NCBI RefSeq assembly: GCF_007752345.1
Contig: NZ_CP036299.1
Span: 4,498,001 to 4,562,000, forward strand
Direction: 5' to 3'
DNA: 64,000 nucleotides
DNA from: Planctopirus ephydatiae
GTDB taxonomy: Bacteria; Planctomycetota; Planctomycetia; Planctomycetales; Planctomycetaceae
Below the pieces are notes generated by a model. That model saw only the letters and a list, made by a program, of their open reading frames with translations, ran no database searches and was not told the origin of the DNA. Positions within the stretch are counted from its first letter, which is position 1. Each line of letters starts with the position of its first letter. The translations under genes were made by a program, and so were the position numbers. This document shows, in pieces, positions 2,453 through 26,078 of this stretch.

Positions 2453-3793
2453 ATGCTGAAGCTCTGTCTTTGCGTGATGCTTTTGTGCCTCACAATGATC
2501 GACAGGGTTGTCGCACAGACCAGTCCTCCAGGTGAACCGAAGGCGAAAGCTGCGGGTAAGGCCGCACAAACTCCCGATCGCAATCGCGGGAAACCATTAC
2601 CGCCCGGTGTGCGCGATTACACATCTCGCAATTTTCTCATGCATACCGATCTTCCGCCGGAGGATGCGAAAGAGTTACTCACCCGGCTCGAAACAATGCT
2701 GACCTTGATCTCGAAATACTGGGGCAAACCCAATCGAGCAGTCATCGAAATGTATGTCGTGAAAGATCTCTCGGTCTGGCCGCCTGGTTCTATCGATGGG
2801 CGCGGGTTGCAAAGCATCGAAGCGGGTGCAGGAGTCACACTGGGTCAGACGGCGTTTATCGGAAACGAGGCTGTCGATGCCAAGGCGGTCGTTTACTCAG
2901 TGGCCGACCGCGGGACACCGCAACATGAAGCGGTTCACGCCTACTGCCAACTGAATTTTGGACGAACCGGCCCGACGTGGTATTCCGAAGGGATGGCCGA
3001 GATGGGGCAATACTGGAAAGAGAAAGATACTTCAGTAGCCATCCATCCGGTGGTGTTTGATTATCTCAAGAAATCGGAACCGAAGTCGCTCGACGAAATC
3101 ATCGCCCCCGGGCAGACGACGGGAGATAGCTGGGAGAATTATGCCTGGCGCTGGGCCCTGTGCCATTTGCTGGCGAACAATACCAACTATGCTTCGCGTT
3201 TTCGGCCCCTCGGGCTCTCATTACTTTCCAGCCGGCCAGGAAGCTTTGAATTGACCTACGGTCCATCGGCTCGCGAAATCAGTTTCGAATATGATTTCTT
3301 CCTCAAGCACCTCGAACAAGGCTTTCGAGCCGATCTGTGCAGTTGGGATTGGCAAACCAAACCGGTGGCTGTCAGAGGGACAGCTACTGTCCAATCCAAG
3401 ATTGATGCCAAAAAGGGGTGGCAGGCTTCGAGGCTTCTGGCCAAAGCCGGTGAAACGTATCAGTTCACGACGACTGGCACCTGGAAAACAGGCACTGAAG
3501 GGGAAGCGATTTCACCCGGCAGTGCGGAATCAGAAACTGGCCGACTGGCAGGAGTTCTCTTCAACGATTACGAGTTGAGCGAGCCGTTTATTATCGACAT
3601 AGCCAACGGCTGGACAGCCCCCAGCGATGGAGCCTTATATCTGCGTTGCCACGAGGGTTGGGGCGCACTCCAGGACAACACTGGAACAGTCGCTGTCAAA
3701 ATCAAGCGAGGCACAGAAAGTGTCCGCACGCCCGCAAATGGCGAGCCTGCAGAAACTCTTCCCGCAAGCAAAGAAACTGCTACAGGAAAGTAG
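2453..3793 (+). CDS. Secreted DUF1570-type zinc peptidase-like protein
   Basis: 446 codons from the ATG at 2453, which opens a clean signal peptide (MLKLCLCVMLLCLTMIDRVVAQ). A frame opening at 2369 has no signal in front and is less likely. The core holds HEAVH at about residues 158-162, followed by WYSEGMAEMG near 176-184, the arrangement expected for a gluzincin-type zinc site (HExxH plus a downstream Glu). This matches planctomycete DUF1570 proteins. The last 150 residues form a separate beta-rich region (WQASRLLAKAGETYQFTTTG, later DGALYLRCHEGWG), probably a binding module. It acts outside the cytoplasm; the substrate is unknown. It stands alone on its strand. Confidence 0.75.
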   Translation: MLKLCLCVMLLCLTMIDRVVAQTSPPGEPKAKAAGKAAQTPDRNRGKPLPPGVRDYTSRNFLMHTDLPPEDAKELLTRLETMLTLISKYWGKPNRAVIEMYVVKDLSVWPPGSIDGRGLQSIEAGAGVTLGQTAFIGNEAVDAKAVVYSVADRGTPQHEAVHAYCQLNFGRTGPTWYSEGMAEMGQYWKEKDTSVAIHPVVFDYLKKSEPKSLDEIIAPGQTTGDSWENYAWRWALCHLLANNTNYASRFRPLGLSLLSSRPGSFELTYGPSAREISFEYDFFLKHLEQGFRADLCSWDWQTKPVAVRGTATVQSKIDAKKGWQASRLLAKAGETYQFTTTGTWKTGTEGEAISPGSAESETGRLAGVLFNDYELSEPFIIDIANGWTAPSDGALYLRCHEGWGALQDNTGTVAVKIKRGTESVRTPANGEPAETLPASKETATGK

Positions 3794-4149
3794 TTGTTAT
3801 GGAGGTCATGATCGGGAAAGCATGCGGGAGTATGCCCTACTGGAGTCCTCATGACAAGAGCTGGTGCAATCCGTAGGAACTTCTTGCACCCTACTAAACA
3901 CGAACTATTGGTGGCTGATACTTCGCGGCCTGCGAGAGAGAAGTGGCATCCATGCCGACAGACCATCCCTGGGATCTCAACGTGGTGGGAAAGAGGGATC
4001 GAAGAGGGGCCTGTCCTTCTCTCGCAGACATCAGGCAACAATATGGATTTTAAGCTGGCAGCAAAACACCGTTGACGGCACTCGACGAAGGCTGTTACTG
4101 CACTTTTGCAGCACTGCGCGATGCTCGATTTGCAGTTTTGCGCAATCAG
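3794..4149. other. Gene-less stretch with two inverted repeats
   Basis: It lies between the convergent DUF1570 and mraZ genes. A 23-bp palindromic unit at 3820-3842 recurs at 60687-60709. A second inverted repeat has arms GGTGCAA (3863-3869) and TTGCACC (3884-3890). Overlapping short frames here have no recognisable protein signal. Confidence 0.4.
3820..3842 (+). repeat. Dispersed palindromic unit B, copy 1
   Basis: The unit reads GCATGC, GGGAG, then TATGCCCTACTG. It differs at only two of 23 positions from 60687-60709. The first half can pair with the reverse complement in GTATGC, giving a short hairpin. It lies between convergent genes. Confidence 0.45.
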
Positions 4150-8564: not shown

Positions 8565-8729
8565 GAAATTTTTCCACAGACGAGGGAGTCGCCCACCACG
8601 CATCGAGGCACGACTTCACCCACACCAAGGGGAATTCCAGCCTCAGTGGTCATCCCGATTTCTCTCACCAGAATCCTTAGTGAAACAGTTTTTCTTTTGA
8701 TCGACCATTTTCCAGTCGGCAGGTCTTCT

Positions 8730-11700
8730 ATGCGACAACTTATGAATTTCTCTCAGCGAATGCTGGCCTCTTTACTGCTTGCCAGTCTGGTTTTGATGAA
8801 CTGGCCAACGCTGACAACTGGGGCCGAGAGTGGGCCCCTGAATGTCCTTTTCCTCGGTGACAAAGGCCATCATCAACCCCAGGCGCGTTTTAATGATCTG
8901 CAACCTGCACTGGCCAAGCGCGGCATCAACCTGACCTACACAGAAGACCCTGGTGTTCTGAGTGCTGCCGGGTTAGCTCCTTACAAAGCCCTGGTCGTTT
9001 ATGCCAATATCGACAAGATCACGCCCGATCAGGAAACGGCTCTCATCGAGTACGTGCAGAATGGTGGCGGGTTCGTGCCACTCCACTGCGCTTCGTTCTG
9101 CTTCCGCAACTCGCCCAAGTATGTGGCTCTGGTTGGCGCCCAGTTTTCGAAGCATGGAACAGGCGTCGTCGAGACACGGCTCGAAGCCATCGATCATCCC
9201 ATTCTTAAAGGTTTTTCCGGCTTCAAGAGCTGGGACGAAACATATCGTCATTCGATGCACAACCCTGTGGGCCGCACGGTCCTCGAGTATCATCCTTTGA
9301 GTGCCGACGAACTCAAGAAAGATCCCAAGGCATCGGCTGAAGAGCCCTGGACATGGGTTCGTAATGAGGGAAAAGGCCGTGTCTTTTACACCGCCTGGGG
9401 GCATGACGGACGAACATTCACCAACCCTGGTTTTCATAACCTGGTCGAACGCGGCATTCGCTGGGCAGCCAAAGATGAAACCACAGTCCCGGAATACAAG
9501 GAAAAAGCCAGCTTCCAGCCCCCGGCAATGACAACTATCAAGCCCTCAGCGGCTCCATTTGAGTACATCGATGTCGGGAGCAAAATTCCCAACTACGTCG
9601 CCGGTGCTCAATGGGGCAAACAGGAAAAGCCACTGTCACTCATGCAGTTGCCTTTACCCCCTGAGAAGTCAATCGAGCATTATGTGCACCCCGAAGGGAG
9701 CCAGCTCAAACTCTTTGCTGCCGATCCAGAGCTGGGTGGCAAACCGATTGCATTCAACTGGGATGAAGCGGGGCGGCTGTGGGTTTGTGAAACCATGGAT
9801 TACCCCAATGAGCTGCAGCCTAAAGGCAAAGGCCGCGACCGTATCCGCATTGTCTCGGACACGAATAACGATGGCGTCGCCGATCGCTTTGATGTTTTCG
9901 CGGAAGGACTGAGTATCCCGACTGCGATCGTTTGTGTCCGCGGCGGTGCCATTGTGCAGGATGGGCCGGAGACCATCTTCCTCAAAGATACGAATGGCGA
10001 CGGCAAAGCCGATGTCCGAAAACTGCTGATCAGTGGCTGGGCCATTGGCGATACCCACGGCGGCGTCAGCAACTTCCAGTATGGTCTCGACAACTGGATC
10101 TGGGCCATGCAAGGCTATAACGATTCACAGCCGATCTTGACGAATGGTCAGGCGGCTGGTCGATTTAAGCAGGGCTTTTTCCGCTTCAAGGTTTCTGTCG
10201 GTGCTGATGGCCTGCCCGAAGTCAACGAACTGGAGTTCATCCGTTCGACGAACAACAACACATGGGGGTTAGGCATCAGCGAAGATGGGCTGATTTTTGG
10301 TTCGACAGCCAACCATAATCCATCGGTGTATATGCCCATTCCTAACCGTTACTACGAACAGGTTCGTGGCTGGGCCGCCCGTGGCTTGGGAACGATTGCC
10401 GATACTCATCTCTTCAAGCCGATTACCACCAAGGTACGACAGGTCGATCATCACGGTGGATATACTGCCGGTTGCGGCCACGCAATCTATACTGCCCGTA
10501 ACTATCCCGAATCCTGGTGGAATCGCACAGCGTTTGTGTGCGGCCCCACAGGTCACCTCGTGGGCACCTTTGTACTGACTCAGAACGGGACAGATTTCTC
10601 ATCCACCAGCCCGAATAACCTGGTCGCCAGTGAAGACGAATGGTCTGCACCCATCATGGCGGAAGTGGGCCCGGACGGAAATGTCTGGATCCTCGACTGG
10701 TATAACTACATTGTGCAGCATAACCCGACACCCGCTGGCTTCAAGACTGGTAAAGGGAATGCGTACGAAACCGATCTGCGGGATAAGAAGCATGGTCGCA
10801 TCTTCCGTTTAATCTGGAACAACCGGCCTGGTACTGGTTCCGCAGATCAATCGACCACACGCAGCCTGGCAGGTGCTGATCCACAGACTCTCGTCAAAGC
10901 CCTCGAAGACAACAATTTCTTCTGGCGAAAGCAGGCCCAGCGTTTGCTCGTTGAGCGACAGGATCAATCCGTCGCGCCTGCACTGCTGGCTCGGCTGGGA
11001 GAACACCACGTTGATGCCATCGGGATCGACCCCGGTGCGATTCATAGTGCATGGACACTCAAGGGTCTGGGACAGCTTGAAAGTCTCAGTGATCCCGCGA
11101 CCGTCAAGGCCCTCACAGCAGGCCTGACTCATCCCTCAGCAGCGGTCCGCAGAAATGTGATCCAGACGTTGCCACCTGTCCCCATGACACCTTCATTGAT
11201 TGCCAAAACAAAAGTGGCAACTGATGAAGAACCTCTTGTCAGGCTGGCGGCTTTTCTGGCACTGGCCGATGCACCAGCCACCAGCGAATCAGCAACCATC
11301 ATTGCCGGTGCGTTGCGTGATCCTGCGGTCTTTGCTGATCGATATCTACCTGAGGCATTAACAGCAGCGGCTGCTCGTAACGACGTCCTGGTCATTGAGG
11401 CTCTGGCGGAAAAGACTGCTCAGACCACTCCTTCTCAAACCCCACTAGCCGGACCTGCTCTGGAGCTATTGAAACGCGTAGCGGAACATTCGGCCCGTAG
11501 TGACAAACCCGCATCTGGCGCCGCGATACTCGCTCAGATTTCAAAAATGCCTCAAGATGCTGCCGAAGCGATTATTGCCGGTCTGTCAACAGGCTGGCCT
11601 CGCAAGTCGGCAGAGGCAGCCAATGCAACCCCCGAGCAGGTTGAGGCCATTACAAAACTTTATCGCGAGGTTTCACCAGCCAGCCGCTCGCAGCTTCTCG

Positions 11701-13241
11701 CCGTGAGTCAGCGGATGGGGCTGAATGTGCTCGAAAAGTTCTCTGGCGAACTGGCTGCACAGTTTCTCGCCAAGGTGAAAGACGCCAAGCTGCCCGAAGC
11801 AGAACGACTGGCTGCCGCCCGCGATTCGATCGCACTACTCCCCACCAAGGCCGAGATTGCCGGCCAGCTCCTGGATCAGCTTTCGGTGAAGTCAACTCCG
11901 CAGTTGACCAATGGGATTCTGTCTGCACTCACAGCTTCCGAATCGCCCATGACAGGCACAGCCCTGATCAATCACTTGGGAAGCATTACTCCAGGTTCCC
12001 GCCCACAGGCTTTGCGAATGCTGCTCGCTCGCAACGACTGGACACTTTCGCTCCTCGAAGCCAGTCAAGCCGGTAAACTGAGTCTGGGTGAATTGCCACT
12101 CGATCAGCAGCAGTCTCTGGCGGCTCACCCCGATGCTAAAATTCAGAAACTGGCTCGCGAAATTCTCGCCAAGGGGGGTGGCCTGGCCAGTGCCGACCGC
12201 CAGACGGTGATTGATCAACTCGATCATGTGACGAAAGAAACAGGCGATCCTGTTGCGGGCAAGCTGATCTACACCCAGCAGTGTGCCAAGTGCCACGTGT
12301 ACGGTGATCTGGGTCAAAAAGTCGGGCCGAATCTGACAGGGATGTCGGTGCATCCGAAGCATGAGTTACTGGTGCATATTCTTGACCCGAGCCGCAGTGT
12401 CGAAGGGAACTATCGGGCCTATTCCGTGGTACTGGAAGATGGCCGTGTCTTTACAGGACTGCTCGCTTCGGAAACAAGAACCACCATTGAATTGCTCGAT
12501 GCCGAAGGTAAGCCTCAATCAATTCAGCGGGACGAGATCGAAGAACTCGTTGCTTCGACGAAATCGTTGATGCCCGAAGGCTTCGAGAAGCAGATCACTC
12601 CCGCCGGGATGCGCGATCTACTGGAGTTCCTCAAGCAGCCCGGGAAGTATCTGCCCCTGCCACTGGAGAAGTTTGCCACCATCAATACGACTCGGGGAAT
12701 GTTCTACAGTGCCGATGCTCAGGCAGAACGGTTGATCCTGGAGAACTATGCCCCCCGCAATGTTGGCGATGTTCCTTTTGCTTTCGTTGACCCGAAGGGT
12801 GCGACCACCCCCAATGCCATCATGCTCTACAGTGCGAATGGCAAGTTCCCTCCCGAAATGCCGAAACAAGTCACGCTCGCTTGCGGCCTCAAGGTGAAGA
12901 CGATTCATCTGTTGGGTGGTGTGGGTGGCTGGGCCTTCCCTGCCTCAGAAAAAGGAACAACCTCAATGATTGTCCGGCTGAAGTACAGCGATGGGTCGAC
13001 CGAAGATCACAAGCTGATCAATGGTGAGCACATTGCCGATTACATCCGCCGGGTGGATGTCCCTCAATCGACCTTTGCCTTCTCGGCTCGTGGGCAGCAG
13101 TTGCGCACCGTCTCGATTAACTGCGGCAAAGACCTCCCTCTGGAGACGATTGAACTCATCAAAGGAAACGACGGGACAGCACCTGTGGTCATGGCCGTCA
13201 CACTGGAGATGGGACAGCAGCCCGTCGCCAAAAAGGAATAA
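8730..13241 (+). CDS. Exported ThuA / PVC-type dehydrogenase / HEAT / cytochrome c fusion protein
   Basis: 1503 codons from the ATG at 8730, which opens a signal peptide (MRQLMNFSQRMLASLLLASL and on); the open frame reaches back to 8646 without signal-like sequence. Domains in order: ThuA-like (NVLFLGDKGHHQPQAR through ERGIRWAAKDE, about 35-250); PVC-type membrane-bound dehydrogenase beta-propeller (FNWDEAGRLWVCETMDYPNE, DTNNDGVADRF, DTNGDGKADVR, about 320-720); HEAT-like helical repeats (about 735-1150); a c-type cytochrome with CAKCH near residue 1185 and downstream GPNLTGM as likely methionine ligand; and a C-terminal beta-rich domain. Such proteins are typical of planctomycetes and are thought to oxidise sugars or alcohols at the cell surface and pass electrons to the heme. 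A terminator follows at 13307. Confidence 0.9.
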   Translation: MRQLMNFSQRMLASLLLASLVLMNWPTLTTGAESGPLNVLFLGDKGHHQPQARFNDLQPALAKRGINLTYTEDPGVLSAAGLAPYKALVVYANIDKITPDQETALIEYVQNGGGFVPLHCASFCFRNSPKYVALVGAQFSKHGTGVVETRLEAIDHPILKGFSGFKSWDETYRHSMHNPVGRTVLEYHPLSADELKKDPKASAEEPWTWVRNEGKGRVFYTAWGHDGRTFTNPGFHNLVERGIRWAAKDETTVPEYKEKASFQPPAMTTIKPSAAPFEYIDVGSKIPNYVAGAQWGKQEKPLSLMQLPLPPEKSIEHYVHPEGSQLKLFAADPELGGKPIAFNWDEAGRLWVCETMDYPNELQPKGKGRDRIRIVSDTNNDGVADRFDVFAEGLSIPTAIVCVRGGAIVQDGPETIFLKDTNGDGKADVRKLLISGWAIGDTHGGVSNFQYGLDNWIWAMQGYNDSQPILTNGQAAGRFKQGFFRFKVSVGADGLPEVNELEFIRSTNNNTWGLGISEDGLIFGSTANHNPSVYMPIPNRYYEQVRGWAARGLGTIADTHLFKPITTKVRQVDHHGGYTAGCGHAIYTARNYPESWWNRTAFVCGPTGHLVGTFVLTQNGTDFSSTSPNNLVASEDEWSAPIMAEVGPDGNVWILDWYNYIVQHNPTPAGFKTGKGNAYETDLRDKKHGRIFRLIWNNRPGTGSADQSTTRSLAGADPQTLVKALEDNNFFWRKQAQRLLVERQDQSVAPALLARLGEHHVDAIGIDPGAIHSAWTLKGLGQLESLSDPATVKALTAGLTHPSAAVRRNVIQTLPPVPMTPSLIAKTKVATDEEPLVRLAAFLALADAPATSESATIIAGALRDPAVFADRYLPEALTAAAARNDVLVIEALAEKTAQTTPSQTPLAGPALELLKRVAEHSARSDKPASGAAILAQISKMPQDAAEAIIAGLSTGWPRKSAEAANATPEQVEAITKLYREVSPASRSQLLAVSQRMGLNVLEKFSGELAAQFLAKVKDAKLPEAERLAAARDSIALLPTKAEIAGQLLDQLSVKSTPQLTNGILSALTASESPMTGTALINHLGSITPGSRPQALRMLLARNDWTLSLLEASQAGKLSLGELPLDQQQSLAAHPDAKIQKLAREILAKGGGLASADRQTVIDQLDHVTKETGDPVAGKLIYTQQCAKCHVYGDLGQKVGPNLTGMSVHPKHELLVHILDPSRSVEGNYRAYSVVLEDGRVFTGLLASETRTTIELLDAEGKPQSIQRDEIEELVASTKSLMPEGFEKQITPAGMRDLLEFLKQPGKYLPLPLEKFATINTTRGMFYSADAQAERLILENYAPRNVGDVPFAFVDPKGATTPNAIMLYSANGKFPPEMPKQVTLACGLKVKTIHLLGGVGGWAFPASEKGTTSMIVRLKYSDGSTEDHKLINGEHIADYIRRVDVPQSTFAFSARGQQLRTVSINCGKDLPLETIELIKGNDGTAPVVMAVTLEMGQQPVAKKE

Positions 13242-24899: not shown

Positions 24900-26078
24900 C
24901 TATTTCACGTCCCGCAGACGGTCGAAAGTCACCCATTCATTCCATTCGGGCCCCCATTTGTCATACTTGACCAGATGCAGGCCGTGCTTCACTCCGATAA
25001 TCCTTCCTCGATACCATTCGCTTTTCCACTGAATCTCAACCGGGCTGTTGATGGGCCTGGTCACAGGAGTCGGCGTTCTCAAACGTTCGGGAGTCACCCA
25101 CTCGTCGTCACTTTCCTGATAGCCGTAGTAATGCACCCGACTTAATGCCCCATTGCGACCGATGACAAAGCCGCGATAGTACTTTCCTTGCCACTCGATT
25201 TCGGCTCGCTGGCCAATTTCCGGGTCAGTCGGTTTGTGCGATGTCCGGATGACGAAGTTCGGGTTGAACCCTTTCGTGAACAAACTCTGCGACATCTGAC
25301 GCTCGGCAAAAGCCATATCGAGTTGAATGTTCGCGTCCAGCTCTGAGAACGTGATCTGACCGTTGCCGTCATCATCCATGTAACCACGACCTCGAAAGGC
25401 CGAAATCAGGTTCTCGGTAAATGTCCAATTCCCTGTTGAACTCGAATTGTGGTGCGCCGATGCCAGCACTGCGAACGAAACTTTGGGATCAGGAAGCTGG
25501 CGTACCGCTTCGGCCATGGCACCGGAAAAGCAGTGATCGAGGGCGATGACCACCCGTTGTGCCCGGCATAACCGATTGATCTCACGGGCAATTGACGCGA
25601 CTTCCCAGCCGCGATTGGGACCAGCCGTATCATAACTGACGAGGAATGTCTGTTTGTGATCGCTCGTGTTGTAGCCGTGCCCGCAATAGTAAACGATGAC
25701 GAGATCGTCTTTCGCCGGCTGCTTGAGAAAACGAGTGAACTCCTTTTCGATGGCGGCTGTGGTTCCCTGCTCATCGCAGAGATACGTGATCTGAGCTGCC
25801 GGCACGCCGCACTCCTTAAGGACTTGCAGCATCTCGGCATCGCGCCGATGTTTCTGAGGAAACGGCCCGTGTTGCGGGTTTTCCCAACGCAACAGACCCA
25901 CGCAGAAGACCCACGTTCGAGCGGGTTGCCAGTTTGCATCTGCTCCACCGACTCCGGCTTCGGGCTGTGCGGCTGTAACAATCTCAGTCCGAGACCACAA
26001 CAGAATCAAAACAATCAGCGCGACCATCAGCCAACGTTCGAACCGGAAGAACAGAAGACCTGTCACGGTGACTTCCAC
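24900..26078 (-). CDS. Exported caspase-like protein with EF-hand and two Tudor/agenet-like repeats
   Basis: 392 codons from a GTG at 26078; the ATG at 26027 would remove 17 residues from the leader. Residues 14-36 form a signal peptide or membrane anchor. Residues 53-225 are a caspase p20-like fold: His134 in YYCGHGYN and Cys183 in ALDHCFSG are the expected catalytic pair. A canonical 12-residue EF-hand loop follows at 235-246 (DDDGNGQITFSE, with D, D, N at positions 1, 3, 5, Gly at 6 and Glu at 12). Two agenet/Tudor-like repeats end the protein (about 286-334 and 344-390), each with the pattern W..(K/W)YYRG.(V/I)IG, then (D/N)EWV...RLR. The layout suggests a calcium-responsive protease with ligand-binding modules, outside the inner membrane. 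It follows a DUF1559 gene on the same strand. Confidence 0.85.
   Translation of the reverse strand: MEVTVTGLLFFRFERWLMVALIVLILLWSRTEIVTAAQPEAGVGGADANWQPARTWVFCVGLLRWENPQHGPFPQKHRRDAEMLQVLKECGVPAAQITYLCDEQGTTAAIEKEFTRFLKQPAKDDLVIVYYCGHGYNTSDHKQTFLVSYDTAGPNRGWEVASIAREINRLCRAQRVVIALDHCFSGAMAEAVRQLPDPKVSFAVLASAHHNSSSTGNWTFTENLISAFRGRGYMDDDGNGQITFSELDANIQLDMAFAERQMSQSLFTKGFNPNFVIRTSHKPTDPEIGQRAEIEWQGKYYRGFVIGRNGALSRVHYYGYQESDDEWVTPERLRTPTPVTRPINSPVEIQWKSEWYRGRIIGVKHGLHLVKYDKWGPEWNEWVTFDRLRDVK

Follow-up and report, generated by a model that had tools for sequence, protein, structure and literature searches.

What would a planctomycete do with a protein in which a caspase-like protease, a calcium-type loop and two chromo-like repeats occur together, and how new is this combination? 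The question is raised by one ORF, 24900..26078 (-), of the window (the whole stretch of 64,000 nucleotides that was analysed). The ORF encodes 392 amino acids plus the stop and has a GTG start; in the 5.2-Mb genome to which it belongs, it is the sole match at E ≤ 10. The protein is a real, conserved and probably exported caspase with two chromo-like readers and lies within a published architecture class. What is added here is a near-invariant calcium-type loop that is re-assigned, from its position and its recurrence in other caspases, to the protease domain itself.

A second GTG (residue 5, 26066) may be the true start, since GGAAG is found just upstream of it and since it is conserved in a locus of the same genus (L002), in which the codon of residue 1 is TTG.

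Family and distribution

In the loci L001 to L122, 122 ORFs match the family profile, of which 91 are distinct and 65 were kept (at least 231 profile positions matched, over 190 bits). These 65 members span about nine phylum-level groups. Among them are the window's own copy and close copies in sister genomes; L004, L085 and L088 are cut N-terminally, and L075 is cut in the repeats.

Among 59 genomes around the own one (own included), 13 match at E ≤ 0.001. The match runs from the caspase through the repeats in seven of the 59 (G000, G001, G002, G035, G048, G011, G033) and is cut by a contig end in G003. At the scale of the phylum, the 8-row alignment A1 has matches in 129 of 392 genomes (E ≤ 1e-5), most of them covering just the caspase part. 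The sequence-only reading had proposed a search for the same domain order in other planctomycetes; counted from the listed rows, a match from the caspase into the repeats is present in 24 of the 392 genomes, one of which (G206) reaches the first repeat only, at a contig end. Named genome contigs gave 47 loci, the last four (L089-L092) by the caspase only. Groups with loci are Planctomycetota, Acidobacteriota, Verrucomicrobiota, Cyanobacteriota (Cylindrospermum sp. NIES-4074), Melainabacteria, Sericytochromatia, Deltaproteobacteria (Myxococcota in the tree labels), Elusimicrobiota and Bacteroidota. One holder in culture is Lacipirellula limnantheis (L060).

A tree was built from 97 caspase domains (62 of the family, three cut members being dropped, and 35 others). 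A branch of length 1.57 (support 100/100, in a bootstrap that is not fully settled) separates the family from the others. As the members were picked by whole-architecture similarity, the tree shows that the caspases of the sampled fused forms are related, not that an unfused sister is absent. The genus of the window groups with five acidobacterial copies (100/99), apart from the other copies of its own family, which suggests an older transfer between phyla.

Comparison with the same-genus loci L002 and L003 gave an overall dN/dS of 0.097 and 0.087, respectively. Residues 49-232 have values of 0.047 and 0.048, and the repeats have 0.19 and 0.11. Residues 1-48, where changes are few, reach 0.74 and 0.47. 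Against the partial L004, dN/dS is 0.047 with saturated dS. Judged by these ratios, the gene is under purifying selection.

The protease domain

The caspase-like domain (Peptidase_C14 type) covers residues about 49-279, 25242..25934 (-), according to Pfam (82-228) and to the fold search. It has p20 and p10 halves, "p10 half" here standing simply for what follows the catalytic Cys in the fold. The window protein scores 24.9 bits against Peptidase_C14 (PF00656, residues 82-228; curated cut-off 21.4). This profile is matched by 60 of the 65 members at E ≤ 0.01; the own genome is absent from the genome-level search at E ≤ 1e-10 (32 of 79 listed). Both Pfam passes, this one and that for Agenet given below, are modest, and by these scores the window protein is a divergent member of both families.

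Catalytic His134, 25677..25679 (-), is H in 63 of the 65 members, with two gaps. Catalytic Cys183, 25530..25532 (-), lies in the motif DHCFSG and is C in all 65. Asp181, two residues before Cys183, is likewise invariant (65/65) and is a candidate S1 acid. Asp80 and Arg78 are found in 62 of the 65 members, with three gaps (Asp80: 62 of 62 ungapped). Gly186, Ser214, Thr215, Trp218 and Thr219 are each present in all members and F220 in 63 of them.

Acids of the Asp181 and Asp80 type have an S1 role in metacaspase structures. The conservation of both residues is an indirect hint at a putative specificity for Arg or Lys, which would also fit the abstract on orthocaspases, according to which these enzymes cleave after positively charged residues (PMC6426788). 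In the same source, sequences without a p10 domain are termed orthocaspases.

The full-length AF2 model (8-row alignment) has a mean pLDDT of 83.4 and a pTM of 0.80. Foldseek against the PDB places MALT1 at the top (1.5e-9) and legumain, metacaspases and the bacterial GSU0716 lower down. In VIA-align, where rank differences under 1 Z are ties, AtMCA4 has Z 18.8 (2.4 Å over 206 residues) and legumains are tied with it. The caspase fold with His134 and Cys183, proposed by the sequence-only reading, is borne out by the Pfam score above cut-off, by the near-invariant dyad and by the match of the AF2 model to metacaspases, legumains and MALT1.

The calcium-type loop

An EF-hand-type loop of 12 residues is found at 235-246 (DDDGNGQITFSE), 25341..25376 (-), inside the p10 half; it was identified by conservation and pattern. 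Asp235 is D in 64 of the 65 members and Asn in one. Over the same members, position 237 is D (41), N (22), S (1) or E (1); position 239 is D (51), N (13) or Q (1); position 242 is I (34), V (28) or L (3); position 246 is E (62), D (2) or Q (1). Downstream of the loop, Gln261 is present in all 65.

The strict loop pattern is found in 60 of the 65 members and the loose one in 64 (own included); L083 fails both. In 200 composition shuffles of the p10 regions, the strict pattern occurs in a mean of 0.045 of 65, so that by pattern the EF loop is beyond chance in the caspase and repeat family. The loop from Asp235 to Glu246 noticed earlier has exactly the residues given for it.

The window protein does not reach the Pfam cut-offs for EF-hand_1 (13.6 bits vs 25.4) or EF-hand_5 (12.6 bits vs 25.9), and EF-hand_5 is matched by only 7 of the 65 members at E ≤ 0.01. 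From its residues (D-x-D/N-x-D/N...Glu, 12 positions), 235-246 is classed as an EF-hand-type loop rather than an EF-hand domain. In the AF2 model, the blocks 231-240 and 241-250 have pLDDT 87 and 95. DSSP assigns a helix (219-229), a 5-residue linker, the loop, a short strand (241-243) and a helix (244-259). The model predicts a formed loop, as had been supposed, with a helix after it; the loop would bind Ca2+.

Loops of this type were also sought in other caspases. Of 46 loci given for comparison, 10 were dropped because the dyad pattern was not found (L123, L124, L126, L138, L143, L149, L152, L010, L011, L090) and 1 as a duplicate, which leaves 35. The sample is non-random: searches with the window protein or its alignment supplied 16 of the 46 loci, and planctomycetes supplied 34 of the 35 caspases, the other (L089, labelled Bdellovibrio) being without the loop. 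After the Cys, the strict pattern is found in 11 of the 35 and the loose one in 14 (shuffle means 0.005 and 0.415, respectively); in the stretch before the Cys, the counts are 0 and 1. Searching these 35 caspases for the repeats gave no convincing match (best repeat-profile match: E 0.056, 5.1 bits). The loop is therefore not restricted to proteins carrying repeats. As it occurs in the p10 half of caspases without them, it is part of a common p10 form and not a joined domain. An EF-hand inserted as a separate module between the protease and the readers, as pictured by the sequence-only reading, was thus rejected; the loop is part of the caspase domain. EF-hand motifs are among the additional domains reported in seven archaeal orthocaspases (PMC6426788). 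The calcium-type loop is a recurrent built-in part of planctomycete caspases, and control of these enzymes by calcium is directly testable by point mutation.

The tandem barrels

Two chromo-like/Agenet repeats follow. Repeat 1 covers residues 287-336, 25071..25220 (-), and repeat 2 residues 342-391, 24906..25055 (-). They are identical at 19 of 47 positions (E 4e-11, single comparison) and end in DDEWVTPERLR (324-334) and WNEWVTFDRLR (379-389); the earlier description of two tandem repeats ending (D/N)EWV...RLR is accurate. The window protein scores 30.2 bits against Agenet (PF05641; curated cut-off 27), the best stretch being 353-389 in repeat 2. Agenet is matched by 56 of the 65 members at E ≤ 0.01; at genome level, a search at E ≤ 0.01 listed 26 of 392 genomes, the own one not being among them.

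Two alignments of the repeats were used: A2 (structure and PDB search; 42 of the 65 members) and A4 (single repeats; 51 repeats, about every second member). L080, L081, L083, L085, L086, L087 and a few odd repeats were left out of A4.

The AF2 model of the repeats alone, made with 42 of the 65 members aligned, has a mean pLDDT of 96.1 and a pTM of 0.69. Foldseek returned the FMRP tandem Tudor (9.7e-6), FXR2 (1.8e-5) and the ADCP1 Agenet with H3K9me1 (2.5e-5). Matches across both barrels have an rmsd of about 11-12 Å and a TM of about 0.4; the mutual placement of the barrels therefore differs from that in FMRP and ADCP1. VIA-align, which mostly took one barrel at a time, gave TbTudor (Z 10.7; 1.3 Å, 54), the MRG2 chromodomain with H3K4me3 (Z 10.6; 0.9 Å over 53 residues) and MRG15 (Z 10.5; 1.2 Å, 55). 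MRG2 with H3K36me3 superposes at 0.7 Å over 52 residues. Relatives with nucleic acid exist among the VIA-align matches, e.g. Shuguo PWWP with ssDNA.

Searched against PDB sequences, the two-repeat profile matched FXR1 over both repeats (positions 10-104; 2.7e-8) and, at 1.1e-7, MRG701. L3MBTL3 took top ranks in the PDB profile searches by sums over three weak matches, and MRG2 and FXR1 were therefore relied on instead. Designed SAKe repeat proteins, at the top of the single-repeat search, are spurious (tiny scores summed over repeats). The pooled single-repeat profile matched MRG2 (At1g02740) at 2.7e-10 and placed H, Y, Y, W and W of MRG2 on five positions, which we take to be the MRG cage. 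The cage of MRG2 is given as five positions by Kaur et al. 2018 (PMC5906684).

According to the models, the repeats are SH3-like barrels close to Royal-family domains. The fold search could have put 286-390 outside the SH3/Tudor class suggested for it; it returned MRG chromo, FMRP/FXR Tudor and plant Agenet domains. At the cage positions, repeat 2 has five aromatics (W351, Y356, Y372, W375, W379) and repeat 1 has four (W296, Y301, Y317, Y320), the fifth position being D324. In repeat 2, five, four and three aromatics are found in 23, 29 and 7 of 59 ungapped members, respectively (four or five in 52 of 59). In repeat 1, five, four, three, two and one are found in 12, 37, 9, 4 and 1 of 63 (four or five in 49). 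The repeats are diverged in L080, L081, L083, L086 and L087; the acidobacterial L053 and L070 appear to keep one repeat only. The repeats may bind a methylated-lysine-like or other cationic group.

Probable export

The N-terminus is signal-peptide-like over about residues 5-37, 25968..26066 (-). A home-made heuristic finds a hydrophobic stretch (17-28) and a small-residue cleavage-like site near 34-37; AF2 gives a helix at 7-28, with low confidence there. The rule (hydrophobic stretch plus small-x-small site) is fitted by 58 of 62 members, the three cut ones being left out; L025, L066, L074 and L083 fail. Export of the window protein, put forward in the sequence-only reading, is probable in the sense that its N-terminus is of export type by this rule. 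Bacterial chromo-like domains are described as consistently occurring in secreted proteins (Kaur et al. 2018, PMC5906684).

Proposed function and alternatives

The best explanation of the whole, with a probability slightly above one half, is an exported, calcium-stabilised, Arg/Lys-specific caspase docked by aromatic cages. The protein would be an exported caspase-type (orthocaspase-like) cysteine endopeptidase. Its His134/Cys183 dyad would cleave behind basic residues, the likely S1 acids being Asp181 and Asp80. Ca2+ in the 235-246 loop of the p10 half would stabilise or license the active form, either in the periplasm or extracellularly. With their aromatic cages, the C-terminal chromo-like barrels would hold the enzyme to envelope or matrix peptides that bear a methylated-lysine-like or another cationic group, and docking would thereby select the cleavage sites. 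The analysis shows the domains, their predicted folds, a dyad and a loop that hardly vary, the kept cage aromatics and a single clade of the sampled family; export, Ca2+ binding, specificity and ligand are inferred, as is docking, rather than allosteric gating, for the repeats.

The part given to calcium may be simpler. If the ion in the loop is a fixed structural one and no switch, the protease would be constitutively active once secreted. The position of the loop inside p10, its recurrence in caspases without a repeat match (11 of 35 strict, 14 of 35 loose) and its near-invariance in the family, as expected of a structural site, favour this, as does the fact that extracellular calcium is usually ample. 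Metacaspases, which are close in fold, are however calcium-activated enzymes, and a purely structural ion is a serious contender whose chance falls somewhat short of even. The repeats, in turn, could be an autoinhibitory or gating tail that covers the active site until a ligand binds or self-cleavage occurs, which is the ligand-gated version of the sequence-only reading. Legumain zymogens, in which a C-terminal prodomain lies over the active site, belong to the best matches of the fold search, in which their model ranges extend to about residue 378-380, and the order protease, linker, repeats is compatible with such a tail. Yet the extended legumain alignments add few residues (by titles, about 192-201 aligned in VIA-align for mature forms and 199-218 for zymogens) and show no shared prodomain, and a single repeat seems to be left in two acidobacterial members; a tail of this kind is improbable.

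The ligand of the repeats can also be questioned. Nucleic acid might be bound instead, or a peptide without methylation (peptidoglycan stem peptide), and the aromatics would then be kept for the fold. In the alignment, the five positions fall on H, Y, Y, W and W of MRG2, taken to be its cage, and the cage aromatics are largely kept across about nine phylum-level groups, both of which count against such ligands. Peptidoglycan peptides and extracellular nucleic acids are nevertheless allowed by Kaur et al. 2018 (PMC5906684), and some fold relatives were solved with nucleic acid, as the Shuguo PWWP was; this reading is rather unlikely. Further out, and a long shot, is an extracytoplasmic "reader-protease", in which tandem methyl-ammonium cages of chromatin type, at work outside the cytoplasm, place a calcium-licensed caspase on a methylation mark. 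Candidate marks, at the same low probability, would be methyl-lysine on surface proteins or, in planctomycetes, the trimethylammonium head group of trimethylornithine lipids; the lipid part is speculation. Trimethylornithine lipids are known from planctomycetes (PMC7828035). If the reading were true, local envelope proteolysis would be written by methylation.

Relation to described systems

Secreted chromo-like domains fused to caspases, planctomycetes included, were described by Kaur et al. 2018 (PMC5906684). These domains were proposed there to bind murein or matrix peptides, likely at methylated-lysine-like groups, and to help anchor peptidases. The sequence-only reading had not recognised the combination as characterised; it overstated the novelty, because the fusion class and its predicted function have been in print since 2018. 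No bench study of the caspase and chromo-like family was found in the full-text literature, in which few subscription journals are covered. The window protein shares with this class the caspase-like peptidase (secreted in the class, probably so here), the chromo-like barrels, the cage residues and the tandem copies. The account of the class given there mentions no near-invariant EF-type loop within p10 of these caspases; the EF-hand figures in it as another partner of chromo-like domains. The interest of the window protein lies in ease of testing, not in novelty of the combination.

Orthocaspases and metacaspases have the same fold, the HG...DxC dyad and the Asp two residues before the Cys. 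Compared with them, the family of the window adds two chromo-like repeats, the EF-type loop (also found in some bacterial caspases) and a conserved S-T-x-x-W-T-F stretch. MRG/EAF3, FMRP/FXR and ADCP1 share with the repeats the barrel fold, the (S)WDEWV-type motif and the aromatic positions, and FXR1 also has two barrels in a row in sequence. Those proteins are eukaryotic and chromatin- or RNA-linked, whereas the repeats of the window stand behind a protease and are probably exported; in FMRP and ADCP1, the barrels are also placed differently. An earlier life of chromatin barrels outside the bacterial cell is a proposal of Kaur et al. (PMC5906684). A family as well conserved as this one could serve to test whether the methyl-reading barrels of eukaryotic chromatin had such an earlier life, tied to proteolysis.

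The EACC1-associated caspase (NF047832) is the only NCBIfam match at E ≤ 0.01; the window protein scores 61.1 bits over profile positions 27-203, below the cut-off of 140. The PADLOC profile PDLC02987 (anti-phage defence caspase) is matched weakly (1.8e-7, positions 46-130 of 453).

Neighbouring genes and related loci

The four neighbours of the caspase gene that were scanned in the window (Pfam) encode MsrB, DUF1559, a pseudouridine synthase and a sigma factor; they do not suggest a defence-system context. MsrB and DUF1559 are kept in L002, the sole same-genus locus compared. A conserved operon was also considered. The check covered the caspase gene with its four neighbours and, by Pfam, ten neighbours from seven related loci, selected among the genes called in ten loci; the scanned loci show no shared partner. 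For the caspase gene, a recent foreign origin was ruled out, as its G+C (0.548) is near that of the window (0.539).

In the acidobacterial L050 (3945-4664) and L049 (3249-3974), a double-zinc-ribbon gene lies just upstream of the caspase gene and overlaps it, given the starts chosen here. A contig of Sericytochromatia (L079) carries two adjoining members, 1649-2869 and 2844-4082, with slightly overlapping frames; they are sisters in the tree and look like a tandem duplication of the whole gene. In the elusimicrobial L087 (4926-6569), caspase and repeat are followed by a dual-specificity/tyrosine phosphatase domain (residues 400-505; PTP-NADK-type, 2.7e-19).

In two genomes of the same class, a long ORF (L010, 1411-3543; L011, 1-2133) has a caspase-like N-terminal domain without the catalytic Cys, FMDVQYKG being found instead; by eye, its later part is PDZ/S41-type protease-like. 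Proteins of phylum genomes (L018, L019, L020, L022, L023; 508-642 aa) have two or three chromo-like/Agenet repeats and no Pfam caspase match at E ≤ 0.001; a further match, of squalene-hopene-cyclase-like type, is found in L022. The window further contains an ORF of 1531 aa at 8646-13241 (+).
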